This document shows positions 3,818 to 34,178 of a DNA stretch of 34,293 nucleotides, one piece after another. Under the pieces are notes generated by a model. The model worked only from the letters and a program-made list of their open reading frames with translations. It had not been told where the DNA came from and ran no database searches. Each line of letters begins with the position of its first letter. The stretch's first letter is position 1. The DNA comes from Bacillota bacterium. GTDB lineage: Bacteria; Sysuimicrobiota; Sysuimicrobiia; Sysuimicrobiales; Segetimicrobiaceae. The stretch is from positions 1-34,293 of the forward strand of contig JAJPJL010000078.1 in NCBI GenBank assembly GCA_021324255.1, in the 5' to 3' direction. The translations under genes were made by a program, and so were the position numbers.

Positions 3818-5034
3818 CGCCCTCGCGCCGCCGCGATCGGATGGTCCGCGTCGACGATCGGCAGCTCGGGACGGAGCAGGTCCACGTATTTCAGCCCGGC
3901 GCCGGTGTTGAACAACACCACCCGCTCCGCGGGACCGATCTTGCCGTCACGAACCATGGCCTTGAGCGCGCCGTAGGTGGCCGCGCCCTCGGGGCAGGCA
4001 AAGAGGCCCTCGGCCGCGGCCAGCTCGCGCATGGACGCGAGGATCTCGTCGTCGGTTACGGTGTACGCGTCGCCCCCGCTCTCGCGGACGGCCCCGAGGA
4101 TCAGGTAATCGCCGATGGCGACCGGCACCCGCAGGCCCGCCGCGATCGTCTCCGCCCGTTCCCAGGGCTCGGCGTGGTCGGTCCCCGCGCGGTAGGCGCG
4201 AATCATCGGCGCGCAGCCCGCGGCCTGGACGATGACCATGCGCGGCCGGTGGGGGCCGATCCAGCCGAGCGCCTCCATCTCCGCGAATGCCTTCCACATC
4301 CCGACGATGCCGGTGCCGCCCCCCGTCGGATAGATGACGACATCGGGCAGGCTCCAGCCCAGCTGTTCGGCCAGCTCGTAGCCGAGGGTCTTCTTGCCCT
4401 CGACCCGGTACGGCTCCTTGAGCGTCGACATGTCGAACCACCCGTGCTCCCGGCTGCCCTCCCGGATCACCTTGCCCGCGTCGTTGATCAGTCCGCGGAT
4501 CAGATACGCGCGGGCCCCGTAGACGTCGCACTCGGCCTTGTTCGTGTGCGGCGCGTCCGCCGGCATGACGATGTAGCAATCCAAGCCGGCCCGCGCGCAG
4601 TACGCCGCCGCCGCGGATGCGGCATTGCCGGCCGACGGCAGCGCCGCGGCGCGGGCGCCCAGCTCCTTGGCCTTGCTGACGGCGGCGGAGAGCCCGCGTG
4701 CCTTGAACGACCCAGTCGGATTGAGACCCTCCTCCTTGACCCACACCTGGCGGAGGCCCAGGCGTTGTGCCAGGCGCGGCAGCGGGAGCAACGGCGTCAT
4801 CCCTTCGCCGAGCGTCACGATGTGGCCGGGGTCCGAGACCGGCATCAGCTCATGATACCGCCACATCGTCGGCGCCCGGCCGGCGATCGCCGCCCGCGAG
4901 ACGGCGGACTTGGCCCGTTCGAGATCGTAGCGGGGGAAGAGGACTTTCCCGCAGGCCGTGCAGACGGTATGGAGCTCGTTCGCGGAGTACGTGGCCCCGC
5001 ATGCCGTGCACTCGAGATGGCTGAGGTATCCCAT
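3814..5034 (-). CDS. thrC: Threonine synthase family PLP enzyme with N-terminal zinc ribbon
   Basis: A 406-residue protein. It opens with a zinc-ribbon-like CxxC pair (Cys9/Cys12 and Cys25/Cys28: CTACG and CTACGK), followed by the fold-type II PLP domain. Lys111 in TGSFKARGLS should form the Schiff base with PLP; SAGNAASAAAAYCARAGL and GGGTGIVGMWKAF are the phosphate-binding and glycine-rich loops. The known reaction is O-phosphohomoserine to threonine. Zinc-ribbon forms are common among archaeal-type threonine synthases, but cysteate synthase and other PLP lyases share this layout, so the exact substrate is somewhat open. ATG at 5034 is supported by the zinc ribbon beginning immediately. The ribosome-binding site is weak, but TAGAGT six bases upstream could be a -10 box giving a leaderless message. 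Confidence 0.88.
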   Translation of the reverse strand: MGYLSHLECTACGATYSANELHTVCTACGKVLFPRYDLERAKSAVSRAAIAGRAPTMWRYHELMPVSDPGHIVTLGEGMTPLLPLPRLAQRLGLRQVWVKEEGLNPTGSFKARGLSAAVSKAKELGARAAALPSAGNAASAAAAYCARAGLDCYIVMPADAPHTNKAECDVYGARAYLIRGLINDAGKVIREGSREHGWFDMSTLKEPYRVEGKKTLGYELAEQLGWSLPDVVIYPTGGGTGIVGMWKAFAEMEALGWIGPHRPRMVIVQAAGCAPMIRAYRAGTDHAEPWERAETIAAGLRVPVAIGDYLILGAVRESGGDAYTVTDDEILASMRELAAAEGLFACPEGAATYGALKAMVRDGKIGPAERVVLFNTGAGLKYVDLLRPELPIVDADHPIAAARGR

Positions 5035-9449: not shown

Positions 9450-10369
9450 CGGGCTTCCCGAAGCGCCGCCGCGATCGCCGCTCCGGCTTCCTCGATCGTC
9501 AGCGCGTCGCCGCGCACGGGAATGCCGCGGGCCCTGAGCCGCACGCACACCTGGGTCGGAAACGGCGGGAGCAGGCCGTAGGGAGCGAGCGCGTCGGGGC
9601 GCGCGAACACCTCGCGCGGCGGGCCGGATGCCACGACCGCGCCGGCGTGCAGCACGTAGACGCGATCGGCGAGGCCGGCGATCTCGTCCATGTCGTGCGA
9701 CACGAGCACCAGCGTCAGCCCGTCCCGGCGGCGCAGGGCCAGGAGCCGCTCCCGGACATCCAACCGCGTCGCGGGATCGAGGCCGGAGGTGGGTTCGTCC
9801 AGCACGAGCACCTGCGGCCGCATGGCCAGCACCCCCGCGAGCGCCGTTTTGCGCAGCTCGCCGCCGCTCAACGTGTACGTGTACCGGTCCTTGAACGCGT
9901 CGAACGGCAACCCGACGGCCTCCATCGCCCACCGGACCCGCGCCCGGAGTTCCTCCGCCGCGAGACCGAGCTGCCGAGGGCCGTACGCGACGTCGTCGCC
10001 GACGAGCGGCTCGAACACCTGGTCCTCGGGGTCCTGAAACGCGACCCCGACGAGCCGCCGGACCGCCTCGATGCCGGCGTTCGAACGCCCCACCTCGTGG
10101 CCGGCCACCACCACGCGGCCCCGAGCCGGACGGAGCAGCCCATTGAGGTATTGAATCAGGGTGGACTTCCCGGACCCGGTGTGCCCGATCACACCCACAA
10201 CCTCGCCCGGGTACACGTGCATCGTCACGCCCCGCAGCGCGGCCTCCGCAAACGGGGTGCCGGCCATGTACGTATGCCACAAGTCCTCGACGTGGATGAG
10301 CGCCCCGTCCGCCCGGCCGATCTCGGCGCGCGCACCGGCGGCGGACGCCGCCGCGCGGGACGCCGTCAT
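9446..10369 (-). CDS. ecfA2: ECF transporter ATPase EcfA2
   Basis: A 307-residue ABC ATPase starting at ATG 10369, overlapping the ecfA1 stop as ATGA. The pattern HTYMAGTPFAEAALRGVTM, then Walker A GHTGSGKST and the run IQYLNGLLRPARG, is diagnostic of EcfA2 (A'). The Q-loop is FQDPEDQVFE, the signature LSGGELRKTALAGVLAM, Walker B LVLDEPTSGLDP and the switch His in LVSHDMDE. It has a longer-than-usual N-terminal tail of ~22 Ala/Arg-rich residues; a later start is possible. With EcfA1 it powers uptake by S components, probably including the neighbouring QueT. Confidence 0.95.
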   Translation of the reverse strand: MTASRAAASAAGARAEIGRADGALIHVEDLWHTYMAGTPFAEAALRGVTMHVYPGEVVGVIGHTGSGKSTLIQYLNGLLRPARGRVVVAGHEVGRSNAGIEAVRRLVGVAFQDPEDQVFEPLVGDDVAYGPRQLGLAAEELRARVRWAMEAVGLPFDAFKDRYTYTLSGGELRKTALAGVLAMRPQVLVLDEPTSGLDPATRLDVRERLLALRRRDGLTLVLVSHDMDEIAGLADRVYVLHAGAVVASGPPREVFARPDALAPYGLLPPFPTQVCVRLRARGIPVRGDALTIEEAGAAIAAALREAR

Positions 10370-11205
10370 GAGGCGGCGCGGCCGGCCACGGCATCGACGA
10401 TCTCGTCGACGCTCATGAGATCCACCGGAAAGTCGGGAATCTCGCGGCGTATCCGAAACGCGAGCGCGGTCGCCGGCGGCAGGTCCAGGCCGAGCGTCGC
10501 GAGGCGGCCGGCGTCGGCGAACACGGCGCGCGGTGGCCCCGACGCGACGACCGTCCCGCGCGCGAGCACGACGATGCGGTCGGCCGCGGCGGCTTCGTCC
10601 ATGAGGTGCGTGATCGACACGACGGCCGTCCCCTGGCGTCGCAGGCCGGCAACCAGACGTCCCAGATCCGCGCGGCCGCGGGGGTCGAGCAGCGAGGTGG
10701 CTTCGTCCAGGACGATGCACGCCGGCCGCATGGCCAGCACCGCCGCGATGGCCACGCGCTGCTTTTGGCCCGCGGAGAGCAGGTGCGGGGGGCGGTCGCG
10801 ATAGTCCCACATCTCCACGAACTCCAGCGCCTCGCGGACCCGCGCGTGGAGCTCCGGGCGCGGCACGCCGAGGTTTTCGGGACCGAAGGCGACGTCCTCC
10901 TCGACCACGGTCGCCACCATCTGGCTGTCGGGATGCTGAAAGACCATGCCCACCGTCTGGCGGATGGACCGCGTGTGCGCCGGATCGCGCGTGTCCATGC
11001 CCCGGACCCGCACGGCGCCGGCGCTCGGGCGAAGGAGGCCGTTGAGGTGGCGGGCGAGGGTGGATTTGCCGGAACCGTTCGGACCGATGATCGCAACGTG
11101 CTCGCCGGCCGAGACCCGCAGCGAGACGCCGCCCAGGGCGAGGTCCCCGGCTCCGCCGTAGCCGTACTCCACGCCGTCGCAGACGATCAGCGGCTCGCCC
11201 GTCAC
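10366..11205 (-). CDS. ecfA1: ECF transporter ATPase EcfA1
   Basis: A 279-residue ABC ATPase. I start it at GTG 11205, which overlaps the M20 gene stop as GTGA; an upstream in-frame start at 11229 lies inside the M20 gene. Motifs: Walker A GPNGSGKST followed by LARHLNGLLRPSAG, Q-loop FQHPDSQMV, signature LSAGQKQRVAIAAVLAM, Walker B IVLDEATSLLDP and switch His in SITHLMDE. This is the EcfA1 (A) type. It completes a full energy-coupling module with EcfA2 and EcfT. Confidence 0.95.
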   Translation of the reverse strand: MTGEPLIVCDGVEYGYGGAGDLALGGVSLRVSAGEHVAIIGPNGSGKSTLARHLNGLLRPSAGAVRVRGMDTRDPAHTRSIRQTVGMVFQHPDSQMVATVVEEDVAFGPENLGVPRPELHARVREALEFVEMWDYRDRPPHLLSAGQKQRVAIAAVLAMRPACIVLDEATSLLDPRGRADLGRLVAGLRRQGTAVVSITHLMDEAAAADRIVVLARGTVVASGPPRAVFADAGRLATLGLDLPPATALAFRIRREIPDFPVDLMSVDEIVDAVAGRAAS

Positions 11206-28316: not shown

Positions 28317-29183
28317 TCACCTCGCCGCGACGCCGGCGCGCAGGTACCGCAGCACCGACGGCGCCAGGGCGGCCGGGTGCCGCCCGCCGATCGTCAGGCA
28401 CCGCGCCGCCGGGAGGATCCGAGCAAACCCGCGAAACGCGTCCTCGAGGCGGTGCCGGCGGGAGAGCGAGGATGTGTGCCGCCCCAGGGCGAGCAGCGCC
28501 GCGCCCCTCGTGAGCGGCCGCAGCCGCGGCAGCCCGCCGCGTCCCACGAACACGAACATCGCGGCCCGCGCGGGGGCGTGGGCACGCGCGTCCGGGAGCC
28601 AGTAGCGCGTCCCTCCCTCGCACGCGACTTCCCGGCCGGCCGGCAGCGTGCCCGCGGCCCTGGCAGTCCATGCCTTGACCCCAAGCGGGATGATCACCGG
28701 GAGCATCGTCCCGTGCTCCGGATCGAGCAAGACGAGGTCGTCCGCCATGGATGCCGCGCCGGCCCGAATCAGCGACGCGGCCAGCGACGTCTTGCCCGCC
28801 CCGCTCTCCCCGACGATCACGCACCCCTGCCCCTCCGCGGCGATCGCGCCGGCGTGGATGAACAGCAGCCGCGTCAGCACGTTGGCCAGCGTCGCGACGG
28901 CGTGTCCCACCACGGCGCCGAGCCATCCGGAAGGCGGCAGCGCGAGCGTCCACAGCGTGCGCGCTCCGACCGCGCCGGTCGCTGATCGTAGATCGGGCGA
29001 CAGCGCGATGGTCACGGCCGGCGGCACCTCGCCGTCCACACGAAGTTCGGACAGCACCGCGCACACCGCCGACAGCGCCGCTGGGGGCCCGGCGAGATGC
29101 AGCGTCCAGTTTCCGAGCGCGAGCCGCACCTTCGCGGCCTTGCGGCCGCCGGCATCGAGCGGCGGCAAGAGGGTCAGATCCAC
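28317..29183 (-). CDS. HPr kinase-related P-loop kinase
   Basis: A 288-residue protein starting at GTG 29183, 10 bases inside the end of the PqqD-like gene. The kinase core is FIHAGAIAAEGQGCVIVGES followed by GAGKTSLAASLI: Walker A is GESGAGKT (125-132), and MADDLVLL (Asp148, Asp149) resembles the acidic pair of HPr kinase. The N-terminal ~100 residues replace the usual HprK N-domain. Such HprK-related kinases accompany PqqD-like proteins in exopolysaccharide/exosortase loci and in some lasso-peptide loci, where one phosphorylates a peptide Ser. No HPr (ptsH) is nearby. The target is unknown. Confidence 0.82.
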   Translation of the reverse strand: MDLTLLPPLDAGGRKAAKVRLALGNWTLHLAGPPAALSAVCAVLSELRVDGEVPPAVTIALSPDLRSATGAVGARTLWTLALPPSGWLGAVVGHAVATLANVLTRLLFIHAGAIAAEGQGCVIVGESGAGKTSLAASLIRAGAASMADDLVLLDPEHGTMLPVIIPLGVKAWTARAAGTLPAGREVACEGGTRYWLPDARAHAPARAAMFVFVGRGGLPRLRPLTRGAALLALGRHTSSLSRRHRLEDAFRGFARILPAARCLTIGGRHPAALAPSVLRYLRAGVAAR

Positions 29184-29446
29184 CGGACGCGGGCCTGCAC
29201 CCACCGGTCGCCGCCTTGGCGCACCACAGCGCCGGCGCGCGCCAGGCGGCGCAGGATGCCCGTGGCGCGGCGTTCTGCGCGTCCGCCCGCGGTCGCAGCG
29301 GCGCCGCAGGCGCGCCACACCCGCGCCGCCGCGCGGTCGAGCAGAATCAGCTGTCCGCGCGCCAGATCGAGCAGCACGATCTCGTCGTCGAGCGCCGCCG
29401 CGAGGAACGCCGCGCCGGGCGCGTGAACCGGGTTATTCTCTGTCAC
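29174..29446 (-). CDS. PqqD-like peptide-binding protein
   Basis: A 90-residue protein from GTG 29446. The pattern FLAAALDDEIVLLDLARGQL followed by ILLDRAAARVWRACG is that of PqqD/RRE-like proteins (eVLLd..sg.ly.Ln..aa.iW). The C-terminal half has a winged-helix-like stretch ending in VVRQGGDRWVQARVRW. PqqD proteins bind leader peptides and hand them to a modifying enzyme. No clear ribosome-binding site precedes the GTG, which lies 30 bases after the sortase stop. Coupled to the HprK-related kinase, it forms the known kinase/chaperone pair type. Confidence 0.75.
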   Translation of the reverse strand: MTENNPVHAPGAAFLAAALDDEIVLLDLARGQLILLDRAAARVWRACGAAATAGGRAERRATGILRRLARAGAVVRQGGDRWVQARVRWI

Positions 29447-29476
29447 GGATGCGTGACGGGTGGGGTGCCGGCGTCC

Positions 29477-30094
29477 TCAGGGCGCGGTGCGGCCCGGCGC
29501 AAGGGCCGTCACCTGGGACAGGTCGGCAAACACGACGAGGCGAAACGCCGCGCTGTACCAGGGGGTGCACGACACGAGCGCGACCTCGTGCTGAAGCGGG
29601 CTACCGTCGAGCACGTCGGCCTGCTCCGGCAGGACGGTGACCTGCCGGACGACGTCGTACGCGTAGCGCTTGCCATGGTAGTCGAGCAAAATGGAATCTC
29701 CCGGCTGGAGCCGGTTGATCCAAAAGAACGGCGCGCCGTACGTCGTACGGTGTCCCGCGATCCCCACTAATCCGCCCCGGTCCGGCCAGCTGGTCCACGA
29801 GATCCGTCCCACGCCGTATTTGCGAAGATGGTCTGGCGTCGCACCATCCGGGACGTATCGCCGCACGTGGAGTCTCGGAATCTCGATCACGAGCGCGTCG
29901 GCGGGGGAGGCGTGAGCCGCTTCACCATCCTGGTCCCAGCCCGCGAGCGCGGCGATCTGCGCGCCGCCGACGCCGAGACCCGTACCGGCAACCCACAGGC
30001 CCGGCAGAAGCACGAGGGCAACGCCCGCCGCCAGGGACGCTATGGAAAGAACGCCGAGGAGTTTAGCCCGACGTCGGCGCGTGCGGGTCATCAT
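29477..30094 (-). CDS. Sortase (membrane-anchored transpeptidase)
   Basis: A 205-residue protein. ATG 30094 (or 30091; GTG 30109 is also in frame) is followed by a basic stretch RTRRRRAK and a membrane helix (residues ~12-40). The catalytic domain has His115 in GIAGHRTTYGAPFFWI, Cys176 in VALVSCTPWY and Arg185 in AAFRLVVFA, in the right order for sortases. Motif spacing resembles class D/E-like enzymes, though the class is uncertain. It overlaps by about 30 bases the gene of an LPFTG protein encoded just upstream, its probable substrate. It acts on the outer face of the membrane. Confidence 0.9.
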   Translation of the reverse strand: MMTRTRRRRAKLLGVLSIASLAAGVALVLLPGLWVAGTGLGVGGAQIAALAGWDQDGEAAHASPADALVIEIPRLHVRRYVPDGATPDHLRKYGVGRISWTSWPDRGGLVGIAGHRTTYGAPFFWINRLQPGDSILLDYHGKRYAYDVVRQVTVLPEQADVLDGSPLQHEVALVSCTPWYSAAFRLVVFADLSQVTALAPGRTAP

Positions 30095-30662
30095 CGGGCG
30101 CGACGACACCCGGAGCGAGGATACCCCGCCGGAGCACTCGCATGCAGATCCCCGCCCAGATCAGCAGCGCGCCGGCCATGAACGGCAGCCACAGGTTCGC
30201 GCCGGTAAACGGGAGCACCCGCGGCGCTGGACGGCTGGGGCTCGCCACGGCGGCAACCGGCCTGCGGGGCGGCGCAACGCTTCGCGGCCCCTGGGCGAGC
30301 ACGACCGGACTCGTGGCCGCGGGGGGCGTGGTCGCGGATGCGGCATCGGCGACCGGCGCCGCTTGTCCGGCAGCGGGCACCGGCGCAACGACGGCCGCCA
30401 CGGGAGCCGTGGTCTGTGGCGCACTGGCGAGCAGCGGGAGCAACCCGCCCAGGAGCAACGGCAACAGCCCGGCGACAATCGGGAAGCTCGTGCCACCGCC
30501 ACCTCCACCGCCGCCGCCACCACCGCCGCTTGGCGGGCCCGGTGGCGTGGGCGGACCGGGTGGCGTAGGCGGCGGACCCGGTGGCGAAGGAGAGAACGAC
30601 GACACAACCCCGAGGTCGAACGGGATTGGTTGGACCGTTACCCCCCCACGAAAACCCAGCAT
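30063..30662 (-). CDS. Pro/Gly-rich surface protein with LPFTG sorting signal
   Basis: A 199-residue protein from ATG 30662, preceded by GGGGGAGA. The C-terminus is a cell-wall sorting signal: LPFTG (residues 150-154), a hydrophobic segment NLWLPFMAGALLIWAGICM, then basic RVLRRG, plus an unusual 20-residue acidic/Pro tail. Residues ~24-45 are PGPP-type repeats, followed by 12 consecutive Gly (46-57), then a hydrophobic stretch FPIVAGLLPLLLGGLLPLLASA that could act as a late signal sequence with a cut after ASA. Residues 82-148 are disordered Ala/Pro/Val. The long cytoplasmic-side N-region before the hydrophobic stretch is odd. Confidence 0.8.
   Translation of the reverse strand: MLGFRGGVTVQPIPFDLGVVSSFSPSPPGPPPTPPGPPTPPGPPSGGGGGGGGGGGGTSFPIVAGLLPLLLGGLLPLLASAPQTTAPVAAVVAPVPAAGQAAPVADAASATTPPAATSPVVLAQGPRSVAPPRRPVAAVASPSRPAPRVLPFTGANLWLPFMAGALLIWAGICMRVLRRGILAPGVVAPDDDPHAPTSG
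30201..30215 (-). other. LPFTG sortase recognition motif
   Basis: Codons for Leu-Pro-Phe-Thr-Gly, residues 150-154 of the Pro/Gly-rich protein, directly followed by a hydrophobic segment and basic residues. The cognate sortase is the next gene downstream. Confidence 0.85.
30490..30595. repeat. Low-complexity GGC/GGT triplet tract
   Basis: Near-repeats of GGN and CCN codons encode the poly-Gly and PGPP segments of the LPFTG protein. It is the strongest simple-sequence tract in the window and could vary in length between strains. Confidence 0.7.
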
Positions 30663-30919
30663 CCCCGGTCTCCCCCATCCCCCCTACGGCGACTTGGGCC
30701 GTACGGTCCCCACCTAGGGTGTCCGAACACGCCTTGCAATCTGGATTTTACACAAACCCGGCATGTGTCCTGCTCATTCAAAGGGCCAAGCATCGCTTAT
30801 CTGTTTGACACTTCCCATCATCCCCCAGATCAATCGGCCGGTCCTGGCGCCGCCTGGTATCATTTGACTGCCGGCGGACCGGTCATGCGGTCGGCATCGC
30901 GACCCCCCGCGCGGCCATT
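30663..30919. other. Divergent regulatory gap between LPFTG gene and ABC transporter
   Basis: A 257-base gap, noticeably richer in A+T than its surroundings. TTGACA (plus strand, 30805-30810) is a perfect -35 hexamer, though the best -10 at 18 bases (ATCAAT) is poor. On the minus strand TAAAAT (near 30745) could be a -10 for the LPFTG gene. No convincing small gene or precursor peptide was found. Confidence 0.45.
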
Positions 30920-31675
30920 ATGATCGATATTTGTAATCTCGGCAAAGTCTTTCGCCGGCCGGCGTGGGCGCTCGCCGCTCGACCGCGAACCGGAGCACGG
31001 TCGGTTCGGGCGCTGAGGGACGTTACCCTCACGGTCGGGCGCGGCGAAGTGCTGGCGCTCGTCGGCCCAAACGGCGCAGGCAAGACTACCCTTCTAAGAA
31101 TCCTCGCCACGCTCCTGCTTCCTACCGAGGGTTCGGCGCGGATCGGCGGGGCCGATGTCGTACGGGAGAGCGGCCGGGCGAAACGGCTGCTCGGGCTCGC
31201 TGCCGGCGACGACCAGGGATTTTACTGGCGGCTCAGTGGGCTCGAAAATCTGGAGTTTTTCGCCGGCCTGCTCGGAATGCACGCCGCGGCGGGCCGACGG
31301 CGGGCGACGGAGGCGCTCGAGCGCGCGGACCTGCTTCCGATGGCGCGGGAACCCGTCGGGCGGTATTCGACCGGCCTGCGGCAGCGGCTCGCGATCGCCA
31401 GGGCGTTGTTGGGCGACCCGCCGGTGCTCCTGTTCGACGAACCGACGCGCAGTCTCGATCCCGTCGCCGCGGCGGGGTTCCGCACGCTCGCGGCTGCGCT
31501 CGCCCGCGAACACCATCGGACCGTCGTGATGGCAACCCATAACTTGGAGGAGGCGGAGCTGCTCGCCGACCGTGCCGCGATCCTTACCGGCGGGATCGTG
31601 CGGGAAACCGTGGCGATGGACGGCCCGGGGGGCCTCACCCGCCGCTACCATACGCTCCTCGGGAGACCGCAGTGA
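30920..31675 (+). CDS. ABC exporter ATP-binding protein
   Basis: A 251-residue ABC ATPase. Walker A GPNGAGKTT (residues 49-57), Q-loop region GDDQGFYWRLSG, signature YSTGLRQRLAIARAL, Walker B VLLFDEPTRSLDP and switch His in MATHNLEEAE. The signature STGLRQR differs from the common SGGQ and is typical of DrrA/ABC-2 exporters such as NatA and CcmA-like proteins. ATG 30920 has no visible ribosome-binding site, so a leaderless or weakly translated start is possible. It is coupled to the permease by GTGA overlap. Confidence 0.93.
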   Translation: MIDICNLGKVFRRPAWALAARPRTGARSVRALRDVTLTVGRGEVLALVGPNGAGKTTLLRILATLLLPTEGSARIGGADVVRESGRAKRLLGLAAGDDQGFYWRLSGLENLEFFAGLLGMHAAAGRRRATEALERADLLPMAREPVGRYSTGLRQRLAIARALLGDPPVLLFDEPTRSLDPVAAAGFRTLAAALAREHHRTVVMATHNLEEAELLADRAAILTGGIVRETVAMDGPGGLTRRYHTLLGRPQ

Positions 31676-32475
31676 CGGCCACCATCCTGGCGTGCCTGAG
31701 GCGTGACTACCTGCTCGCCAGCAGCTCGCGCCTCGCGCTCGCCTGGCAGGTGGTGGCGGTCGGGTTCGCGGTCCCCACGCTGTATTATCTCGGCCGCATG
31801 GTCCACCTCGGCGCCGTGCCGGCGCTCCGCGCCGCGGGCGGCGATTACTTCACGTTCGTCGTGGTCGGGGTCGCGGCGGCCACGTTCTTCTCGGCGATGA
31901 TGGGGGCATGCGCCGCCGCGGTGCGCAACGAACAATTGGGAGGCACCATCGAAACGCTCCTGGTCTTGCCGGCCTCGTTTCCGGCGCTGGCGCTCGGCGT
32001 CTCGCTGTGGGCGATCCTCGTCGCCGCCGGGCAGGCCTGCGTCTACTTCGCCCTGGCCAGCATGGTCTTTCCGACCCATCTTGCCCACGCGAACCCGGCC
32101 GGCGTTCTGTGCGCCGCGGCCCTGACCGCCGCGGCCCAGGTGCCGCTCGGCATGCTGGCCGCCGCGTTCGTGTTGCTCTTTCGGCGTCCCGACCTGCTGA
32201 CCGGGACCCTGGCCAGCGTCTCGGTGCTGCTGGCCGGCGTGTTCTACCCGACGTCCGTGCTGCCGCCGGCGCTCAGGCGCGCGGCCGAATATCTGCCGCT
32301 CACGCACGGCCTGCGCGCGCTCCGGATGGCCGCGATCCAGGGCGCCGGCCCGGCCGCGCTCGCGGGGGACCTGGCCGCTCTGCTGGCCTTTGCCGTGGGG
32401 CTCTTTCCGGTTGCGGTGCTCGCATGCCGGTTCGCCCTCCACGAAATCCGGCGCTCCGGCGCCTTCAGCGCGTGA
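31672..32475 (+). CDS. ABC-2 type exporter permease
   Basis: A 267-residue protein with six hydrophobic segments, starting at GTG 31672 inside the ATPase stop. The region NEQLGGTIETLLVLPASFPALALG is the conserved ABC-2 coupling segment (E..GT.E.L...P). The last third has GVFYPTSVLPPALRRAAEYLPLTHGLRALR, a typical motif before the final helix. Together with the preceding ATPase it makes a half-size exporter that would form a homodimer of each. Cargo is unknown; LPS/drug/peptide export are all known for this family. Confidence 0.92.
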   Translation: MTATILACLRRDYLLASSSRLALAWQVVAVGFAVPTLYYLGRMVHLGAVPALRAAGGDYFTFVVVGVAAATFFSAMMGACAAAVRNEQLGGTIETLLVLPASFPALALGVSLWAILVAAGQACVYFALASMVFPTHLAHANPAGVLCAAALTAAAQVPLGMLAAAFVLLFRRPDLLTGTLASVSVLLAGVFYPTSVLPPALRRAAEYLPLTHGLRALRMAAIQGAGPAALAGDLAALLAFAVGLFPVAVLACRFALHEIRRSGAFSA

Positions 32476-33578
32476 CTACCCGCGCGGCGCTCCAGCGGGC
32501 CGAACGCGATCTGTTCGCGATCCTCCGAACGGGAAACCCGGCGGGCCCGCCGGCGGCGGTAGAGTGGGACGCGGTCCTGCGCCTGGCGCTCCGCGAGAGT
32601 GTGGCGCCTCTGGTCGGCGACCGGCTGCGTGCCGCGGGTCCGGCGCGCGCGGCGCCGGAAGCCGTGGCGGCGACATTCGAGCGGCTCCGCCGCGAGGGCG
32701 CCGAGCGCGCCGCCGCGGCGTACGCGGAACTCGAGACGCTCCTGGGGGCGCTGGCGGACGCCGGCATCGACGCGGTCCTGCTGAAGGGCGCGGCGCTCGC
32801 CCGGTTCACGTACGAGGACGCGGCGCTGCGCCCGTTTGCGGACCTCGACCTGCTCGTCCGTCCCGCCGACGTCCAGGCAGTCGCCGGCGTGATGCGGGCC
32901 GCGGGCTACGCGGCGGTGGGTCCGGCGCTCAGGACGCACGCCTACGAGCATTGCTATTTCACGCCGTCATGGAGCAAGCTGCCGGTGGACGTCCACTGGC
33001 AGTACGCGGAGCCGTTTCACGCGATCGAGCTCGACTACGGCGCTGTCTTTGCGCGCGCCTCGCGTGCCGCCGTGGGGGCCGCGGCCGCGTTGGTGCCGGC
33101 ACCCGAGGATCTGCTCGTGGCGTCGAGCGTCGAAGTGGTCCGCGAGGCGTGGGAGAGCAAGCCGGTGCTTCGCCACTTGTGCGACATCGCGGAGACCGTC
33201 CGCCGCAAGCCCGTGGATTGGGAGCGCGTCATCGCCTGCGCCGCCGGCGGCCGGCACCTTCGCGCGCCGCTCAGGCTCAGCCTCGCGGCGGCCCGCGCCC
33301 TGCTCGGCGTCCGAGTCCCGCAGCGGGTCATCGACGCGCTTCGCCCGAGGCGTGCCGCGGCGGTGGACCGCCTCGTGCGGCGGCGGATCCACGCGACGCT
33401 GTTGAGGCGTCCGTCGCCGCTCGAGGCGCTGGCGCGGCAGGCGCTGCTCCGGTGGACCGACGGGGAGGCGTCTCCGGGGTACGGCGCGCTGGTCATGGAA
33501 CGCGTCGAGGTTCAGTGGGAACGCGTTAAGCGGCGCGTTGGGCGGCGGGGGCGCGTCCGGGACGCGCTCGCCCGGTAG
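32472..33578 (+). CDS. NTP_transf_5-type nucleotidyltransferase family protein
   Basis: A 368-residue protein starting at GTG 32472, overlapping the permease stop as GTGA. The core is LETLLGALADAGIDAVLLKG, then AALARFTYEDAALRPFADLDLLVRPAD, with the DLDLLV acidic pair, and later LPVDVHWQYAEPF. This is the PF14907 pattern. The N-terminal ~90 residues and the helical C-terminus (from ~200) are family extensions. These proteins recur in exopolysaccharide and RiPP loci alongside HprK-like kinases and PqqD-like proteins; their reaction is not established. Its three-gene coupled unit faces away from those partners here. Confidence 0.85.
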   Translation: MTTRAALQRAERDLFAILRTGNPAGPPAAVEWDAVLRLALRESVAPLVGDRLRAAGPARAAPEAVAATFERLRREGAERAAAAYAELETLLGALADAGIDAVLLKGAALARFTYEDAALRPFADLDLLVRPADVQAVAGVMRAAGYAAVGPALRTHAYEHCYFTPSWSKLPVDVHWQYAEPFHAIELDYGAVFARASRAAVGAAAALVPAPEDLLVASSVEVVREAWESKPVLRHLCDIAETVRRKPVDWERVIACAAGGRHLRAPLRLSLAAARALLGVRVPQRVIDALRPRRAAAVDRLVRRRIHATLLRRPSPLEALARQALLRWTDGEASPGYGALVMERVEVQWERVKRRVGRRGRVRDALAR

Positions 33579-33581
33579 CGG

Positions 33582-34178
33582 CTACGGCGGCGTCACCGCG
33601 ACCGTGGCGCGATCCGTCCACCACTTTTGCAGCGGATGGGACACGCTGTCATCGGTGAAGTCCTCGACGACGATCACGCCGTCGGCACCCCCGTCGACCA
33701 CCGCGACCCCGACGAACCGGTAGGCCGGATACAAGATGTTGGCCCGATGCGGCGCGCTCGCCATGAGGGCGTCGTGCGCGGCCATCACGCCGTCGGCGTA
33801 GGCGAGATTTTCACCGACGGTCCGCACGCGCACGCCCGCTTCCACGATGCGGTCTCGCGGCGTCCGGCCGTCCGGCGATATGTGCGTGAGCGTGCCGCGC
33901 GCAAACAGGTCCTCGCCGTACGCCTGCGCCACGCGCCGGAGGGTGTCGTGCGGCATCAAGGGCACGAGCCCCGCCGCGACGCGCGTCTCGTTGAGCAGGT
34001 TGAGCACGGTCATGGCGAGATCGGCGCGAACCGGCGCCGCTTGCACATGATAGGGAAGCGCGTACGCCAGCGGCTCGCCCCCGAGCACCCGCGGAGCCGG
34101 TCCGGCCGGCGGCGCGGGCGCGGCGGGCGCGCCGGCGAGCATGGCGAGCGCGCAGACAAAACACAACCAGCCGCGAAT
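33582..34178 (-). CDS. Secreted CAP-domain (SCP/PR1-like) protein
   Basis: About 198 residues. Residues after the signal form a bacterial CAP domain: LLNETRVAAGLVPLMPHDTLRRVAQAYGEDL, then GTLTHISPDGRTPRDRIVEAGV, GENLAYADGVMAAHDALMASAPHRANILYPAYRFVGVAVV. The usual His/Glu cavity residues (HIS, GEN, HRAN) are present. Start choice: TTG 34166 leaves a signal peptide without a basic residue. ATT at 34178, with GGAGGA 8 bases upstream, gives IRGWLCFVCALAMLAG, a normal signal peptide; I use it. Extracellular; function of bacterial CAP proteins is poorly known. Controlled by the riboswitch upstream. Confidence 0.88.
   Translation of the reverse strand: MRGWLCFVCALAMLAGAPAAPAPPAGPAPRVLGGEPLAYALPYHVQAAPVRADLAMTVLNLLNETRVAAGLVPLMPHDTLRRVAQAYGEDLFARGTLTHISPDGRTPRDRIVEAGVRVRTVGENLAYADGVMAAHDALMASAPHRANILYPAYRFVGVAVVDGGADGVIVVEDFTDDSVSHPLQKWWTDRATVAVTPP

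Follow-up and report, generated by a model that had tools for sequence, protein, structure and literature searches.

A conserved gene module of Sysuimicrobiota that unites a RiPP-type recognition element, kinase and nucleotidyltransferase with a sortase and its LPFTG membrane protein

Gene sets that combine a recognition element for ribosomally synthesized and post-translationally modified peptides (RiPPs; the element is abbreviated RRE) with a kinase and a nucleotidyltransferase are known from small peptides of unknown biological role. In the phosphorylated lasso-peptide clusters of the paeninodin, pseudomycoidin and Bsf type, these functions are carried by a B1 RRE, an HprK-like kinase K and a nucleotidyltransferase N (PMC9266682, PMC10368454); BsfB1 binds the leader and accelerates the kinase BsfK (PMC10368454), and PsmN adds a hexose to the phosphoserine (PMC9266682, PMC10368454). 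In the lpp clusters of Bacillota, which belong to linear polyphosphorylated peptides (LPPs; Popov et al. 2026, PMC13381572), phosphorylation falls on a serine that directly follows the leader in the linear precursor, with final product and role unknown (PMC13381572). Here we describe a related set of genes in a stretch of 34,293 nucleotides (the window), which is one whole contig (JAJPJL010000078.1 of assembly GCA_021324255.1; G000:C49 in our genome set) of the 3.7-Mb, 142-contig genome of an uncultured soil bacterium from the phylum CSP1-3, which bears the name Sysuimicrobiota in PMC11604079. In this window, a PqqD-like RRE, an HprK-like kinase and a nucleotidyltransferase of the NTP_transf_5 family lie together with a sortase, a membrane protein carrying an LPFTG sorting motif and an ATP-binding cassette (ABC) exporter pair. 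We read this island as a RiPP-type tailoring pathway that would act on a wall-anchored membrane protein and not on a free peptide, and we assign this reading a probability of roughly 60%; in our best explanation, the island is kin to the pathways that tailor LPPs and lasso peptides of the paeninodin type.

All seven genes that an earlier note on this DNA had named were found between positions 28317 and 33578, and an eighth gene which the note had overlooked, coding for a CAP/YkwD-domain protein, belongs to the set as well (Table 1). Taken alone, the HprK-like and PqqD-like proteins score under their Pfam gathering thresholds (27.4 versus 33.3 bits and 20.5 versus 23.4 bits, respectively), but both identities are confirmed by profiles and structural models. 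Compared with the LPP clusters, the LPP enzyme trio of discrete RRE, HprK-like kinase and NTP transferase is present, as are a transporter and the lack of a cyclase, and the likeness extends to the LPP precursors, which have 35-200 residues, a conserved N-terminus and a variable C-terminus (PMC13381572). In LPP clusters, by contrast, the leader peptidase is a signal peptidase of archaeal type, the transporter is MsbA-like and the leader has the form YxxPxV (PMC13381572); the module combines a sortase and an ABC-2 pair with a membrane substrate of the LPXTG kind, whose N-terminal motif is free of Tyr and Trp and does not match the full LPP leader YxxPxVLxHQxIxFETxxS (PMC13381572). No SpI-like (archaeal-type) peptidase was recognised by eye, without a profile search, among the genes of the window and the module loci. 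With the lasso clusters, the module shares the B1-, K- and N-type proteins and, with the Bsf cluster, also an ABC transporter and the signature and spacing of the kinase (PMC10368454); unlike them, it is devoid of the C cyclase, the B2 leader peptidase and a short precursor and contains sortase, LPXTG and CAP proteins. The absence of a lasso cyclase from the island, as claimed in the earlier note, was borne out: there is no Asn_synthase (PF00733) match on the window contig, the matches of the same genome being on other contigs. The B2 peptidase (PF13471) is not found in the host genome, and G005 is the one module genome with a match above the cut-off, which lies on a different contig. Filing the island as a lasso or an LPP cluster was rejected, with these defining parts (cyclase, B2, leader motif) missing. 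Finally, pairs of a sortase with its dedicated substrate resemble the module in having adjacent genes and a substrate with sorting motif, transmembrane segment (TM) and Arg tail; the module substrate differs from theirs in that an internal TM follows a conserved motif and an N-terminal signal peptide is absent, and the sortase-substrate pair of the module differs in being coupled to RRE and kinase genes in a diderm host. The module is best called a variant of the RRE-kinase-nucleotidyltransferase pathways, joined to a sortase and an LPXTG protein.

The eight genes occur together in seven other CSP1-3 genomes, which span three genera of the host's family and two of another family, and the genes flanking them differ, being common only to close relatives. 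Such recurrence across genera and families, amid changing flanks, puts the grouping far above chance. The layout consists of the genes for CAP, NTP_transf_5, ABC permease and ABC ATPase and, divergently, those for the LPXTG protein, sortase, PqqD and HprK; it is kept in full in two congeners of the host (G001 and G002), in another genus of the same family (G004) and in another family (G041). G032 shows it without a CAP match and G020 without NTP_transf_5 beside it, while in G005 the contig end falls inside NTP_transf_5, in G003 the contig stops before the ABC side, and in G042 the module is spread over two contigs. In G009, the genes for LPXTG protein, sortase, PqqD, HprK, ABC ATPase, ABC permease and NTP_transf_5 form one same-direction operon with small gaps. 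In G021, the ABC pair and NTP_transf_5 are missing from a locus that comprises CAP, LPXTG protein, sortase, PqqD and HprK. The four core genes (LPXTG protein, sortase, PqqD and HprK) stand together in 11 of the 11 readable loci, from three families; the ABC pair adjoins them in nine loci, eight of which also have the nucleotidyltransferase. Of the seven genes whose conservation the earlier note had proposed to check, the core four are kept at every readable locus, and the ABC/nucleotidyltransferase part proved separable (absent in G021, with NTP_transf_5 also absent beside the module in G020). These results come from searches with the sortase, the kinase and the nucleotidyltransferase, each in 100-147 related genomes, and from 15 genome stretches gene-called with a purpose-written codon-based caller, in which skipped genes (PqqD and LPXTG proteins) were recovered from reading frames. 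In addition, a kinase profile was scanned against 386 genomes: the 11 module kinases reached 368-424 bits, the two parts into which a frameshift breaks the module kinase of G032 reached 125 and 102 bits, and all others at most 63 bits.

For six module genes, the pairwise distances are correlated with one another (0.84-0.96), which demonstrates shared descent rather than function. The six genes tested between the host and its two congeners are under purifying selection, with ratios of nonsynonymous to synonymous substitution (dN/dS, NG86) of 0.1-0.42. It could be argued that two independent neighbours are adjacent here, namely a wall set of sortase, LPXTG and CAP proteins and an RRE-kinase-NTP-ABC set that acts on an unseen substrate. 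G023 and G009 have other loci with sortase and CAP but no RRE or kinase, which would fit such a division, as would the absence of the ABC and NTP genes from G021; set against the unbroken company of the core four, the single operon of G009, the correlated distances and the lack of an alternative precursor in the spacers examined, we consider it very improbable. The neighbourhoods of relatives, which the earlier note had proposed to search for independent subsets, yielded no such refutation; the island forms a single unit.

When the PqqD profile was compared with PDB sequences, the sole significant match was TbiB1 (E 3.6e-5), a lasso RRE crystallised with its leader. The AlphaFold2 model of the protein (predicted local distance difference test, pLDDT, 84) retrieved TbiB1 chains at ranks 1-5 in Foldseek, and with VIA-align the top three matches were TbiB1 and the lasso B1 protein 6jx3 (Z 7.1-7.2, root-mean-square deviation 2.0-2.2 over 66-68 residues), followed by an unrelated winged helix at Z 5.3; the predicted structure thus matches a discrete winged-helix RRE related to lasso B1. 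The kinase model (pLDDT 90) has a fold that matches PEPCK/HPr-kinase. Its signature, H110-G125-G128-G130-K131-T132-D148-D149, is invariant in 11 sequences save for position 149 (Asp or Glu) and is spaced identically to that of the lasso kinase BsfK, H148-G163-G166-G168-K169-S170-D186-D187 (PMC10368454). The best NCBIfam match, HprK-related kinase A (TIGR04352), marks the protein as HprK-related, far below the cut-off of that family (43 versus 200 bits). A defence system was discarded as an explanation, PADLOC giving only a weak HprK-type match. In the sortase, His120, Cys181 and Arg190 are invariant; the class E model NF033747 is nearest but below cut-off (83 versus 160 bits), and the nearest PDB relative is SrtE1. 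The motifs KGAAL, DxDLL and DxHW of NTP_transf_5 are invariant as well. Among non-module proteins of the host's order, the three best matches of the permease are in G030 (contig C86, context unclear), G026 and G014, and the latter two sit in lasso clusters.

These two clusters allow a comparison within the order itself. In G014 (L177:1158-7802; G014:C17), consecutive genes code for NTP_transf_5, ABC ATPase, ABC permease, PqqD, Asn_synthase, HprK-like and Transglut_core3 proteins, a cluster of the phosphorylated-lasso type, with a likely precursor MRYEKPQVADFGLIQDHTF... near 4460. The second lasso cluster, in G026 (L213:8210-13532; G026:C1), holds B1, the ABC pair, C (again an Asn_synthase), K and, nearby, B2, and has a likely precursor ...YKPPELMELGSIARHTF... 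on the minus strand of 10100-10980; both precursors carry a [Y/W]xxPx[L/V/I] leader. Five gene types are common to the module and the lasso clusters, and descent from a lasso cluster is plausible but not established, because the similarities of RRE and exporter are distant. The comparison of the module RRE with the B1 profile of G014 was weak (15.6% probability), and we do not claim closeness to that B1.

The LPFTG protein is composed of a conserved leader-like motif, a Gly/Pro linker, a first TM (TM1), a Pro/Ala stalk, the sorting signal, a second hydrophobic stretch and Arg, and so has the features of a sortase substrate (LPXTG-like motif, TM and basic tail); the sorting motif is LPFTG or LPYTG in families f1 and f2 and LPYGG or LPFGG in family f6. 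The N-terminal motif reads GGVTVQPIPFDLGVVSSFSP in the window and GVRIASIPLAQGVTTFSP in G041. Gly7 and Ser24 are its sole invariant residues besides Met1, and Pro25 is kept in more than 90% of the proteins. A profile of the first 31 residues, scanned against the same 386 genomes, found 13 proteins in 11 of them (E 2e-6 to 1e-14), all at module loci, the best non-module match in the host's order having an E of 0.008; searches of the motif against NCBIfam and PDB gave no match. Over residues 1-25, the host differs from G001 by 0 nonsynonymous and 6 synonymous changes and from G002 by 3 and 10, respectively. G020 and G041 encode a second membrane protein of 102-106 residues that has the same N-terminus and no LPXTG, and because of it we regard the motif as a separable tag. 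The earlier note's picture of one surface protein fits the LPXTG protein found at all loci and needs to be widened by this second tagged protein.

An N-terminal Sec signal peptide is absent from the LPFTG proteins, whose first hydrophobic segment starts at residues 37-67, and most orthologues have a Pro at or near the position after the likely signal-peptidase site behind TM1. A Pro at that position would hinder cleavage by signal peptidase I. Both features therefore predict that the N-terminus probably stays in the cytoplasm. We also looked for a hidden small precursor in the spacer that separates the LPXTG gene from the ABC genes, reading it in three genomes and translating its three forward frames in further ones, and recovered only the LPXTG protein and, in G020 and G041, the second tagged protein. 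The statement that no precursor peptide is present stands in that the spacers examined hold no separate precursor, and falls short in that the N-terminal tail of the LPFTG protein is itself most probably precursor-like. One could go further and take this segment for a true RiPP precursor, released by TM1 acting as a late signal peptide or by cutting off the segment and then exported by the ABC pair, with the anchored stalk as only a by-product, a carrier or a part of immunity. In lasso and LPP pathways, the precursor is indeed cut after the leader and the cluster holds a transporter, and the ABC pair has relatives among the exporters of lasso clusters. The module loci have no leader peptidase of the B2 type (PF13471), the sole above-threshold match in a module genome being the distant one of G005, the Pro behind TM1 speaks against cleavage there, and G021 keeps substrate, sortase, RRE and kinase with no ABC genes, so that we deem such a release unlikely.

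Under the tailoring of a wall-anchored protein, the LPFTG protein would keep about 35-65 residues, motif first, in the cytoplasm ahead of TM1. The PqqD-like RRE would bind the motif and present it to the HprK-like kinase, which would phosphorylate it, most likely at the invariant Ser24, and NTP_transf_5 may elaborate the phosphate with a sugar or nucleotide. The Pro/Ala-rich stalk would span the periplasm, the cognate sortase would cut LPFTG between Thr and Gly and join that end to peptidoglycan, and the outcome would be an inner-membrane-to-wall tether whose cytoplasmic tail is modified; the ABC-2 pair and the CAP protein may aid export or act on the wall. The conserved module supports the earlier suggestion of a compact system for modifying and anchoring a single surface protein, both of these being predicted steps.

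Several points weigh against this reading. The motif [Y/W]xxPx[LVIFA], which lasso and LPP RREs grip, is missing from all 13 substrate N-termini (0/13), which lack its Tyr or Trp, and the lasso-leader-like spacing P-x5-G-x5-S occurs in only 5 of the 13, mutually related proteins; an outright identification with lasso leaders was rejected on the same grounds, the shuffle statistics for these kin being nominal and the resemblance only suggestive. Ser24 is picked as the most likely phospho-acceptor by its invariance alone, the mechanism as a whole is predicted from sequence, models and precedent, and the distribution outside CSP1-3 was only sampled. The roles of the ABC pair and NTP_transf_5 are not essential, because G021 lacks both. 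Alternatively, the trio might make or transfer a phospho-sugar for a surface polymer, as part of an envelope or exopolysaccharide system in which the sortase substrate would be an unphosphorylated wall scaffold. The earlier note had proposed to look for exopolysaccharide genes outside the window; genes for polysaccharide export (Wzz, SLBB/Poly_export) are found close to the module in G002 and G005, and lasso and LPP clusters also occur in capsule loci. Neither the window nor most relatives showed polysaccharide genes next to the module. With an RRE and a kinase of the peptide-modifying type, and with the N-terminal motif kept wherever these two are although a scaffold needs no motif, we regard the polymer system as improbable.

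It is tempting to speculate that, in a diderm, a kinase guided by the RRE acts on the cytoplasmic tail of a membrane protein covalently bound to peptidoglycan at its far end, and that this RiPP-type modification reports on or controls the membrane-to-wall tether, which would be a categorically new class; we offer this only tentatively, with the odds somewhat against it. The cells are taken as diderm because Omp85 is present in 39 of the 43 genomes of the host's order. In the open-licence literature, we did not find an RRE/PqqD protein paired with a sortase (papers on RRE and sortase being judged by title); HprK, PqqD and exosortase gave no match, and PqqD, sortase and LPXTG only a general review. 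If true, the tailoring reading would extend RiPP-type modification to an anchored envelope protein, join the RiPP and sortase fields, for which this literature held no prior link, and give sortases a role in a diderm phylum. As the substrate can be named, is expected to be cell-attached and has a guessable modification site, the pathway is directly testable.

Table 1. Positions of the module genes and of the substrate motif in the window
Feature	Position	Strand	Evidence
HprK-like peptide kinase (putative)	28317-29183	-	profile and structure
PqqD-like discrete RiPP recognition element (RRE)	29174-29446	-	PF05402 20.5 bits, profile, predicted fold
Sortase	29477-30109	-	PF04203 E=3e-22
LPFTG membrane protein	30063-30662	-	N-terminal motif, TM1, stalk, LPFTG signal, TM2, Arg tail
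N-terminal leader-like motif, residues 1-25 of the LPFTG protein; candidate RRE-binding/phospho-acceptor site	30588-30662	-	
ABC exporter ATPase (DrrA-like)	30920-31675	+	PF00005 E=1e-28
ABC-2 permease (DrrB-like)	31672-32475	+	PF01061 E=3e-11
NTP_transf_5 nucleotidyltransferase	32472-33578	+	PF14907 E=2e-50
Secreted CAP/YkwD-domain protein, conserved module edge	33582-34166	-	

Other genes near the module were also recorded. Amidase genes that lie near the module in two families of the host lineage were excluded as members, with 35-47% identity between the families and differing orientation. Three genomes have LuxR/NarL-type response regulators in the vicinity of the module (L085:2317-5154, L086:1442-3070 and L087:2902-3570), and at L085 a histidine-kinase-like ATPase gene is near as well. 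The frameshift in the G032 kinase (L092:7019-7882) is either real or an assembly error. The contigs of the host and its congener G001 both stop just past the CAP gene (window:34166-34293; L084:1-131), which looks as if a repeat or a hard-to-assemble stretch comes next.

Related gene combinations occur elsewhere in these genomes. At G008:C68 (L174:6878-11810), an RRE and an HprK-like kinase lie near a pilin-like protein and NTP_transf_5, with neither lasso nor sortase genes, and may represent a further class of substrate of this enzyme set. G005 carries both the sortase module and, at C115 (L175:10498-15816), a lasso-like locus of PqqD, B2, HprK-like and NTP_transf_5 genes near glycosyltransferase-like genes and an N-acetylglucosamine (GlcNAc) 2-epimerase. 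Sortases are present in a phylum taken as diderm, and their pairing with CAP recurs across CSP1-3: other sortases lie near CAP/YkwD genes without RRE or kinase (L098:3954-5883 and L097:10409-12481), and the one at L098 adjoins a protein that carries LPFNG and whose start resembles a signal peptide.

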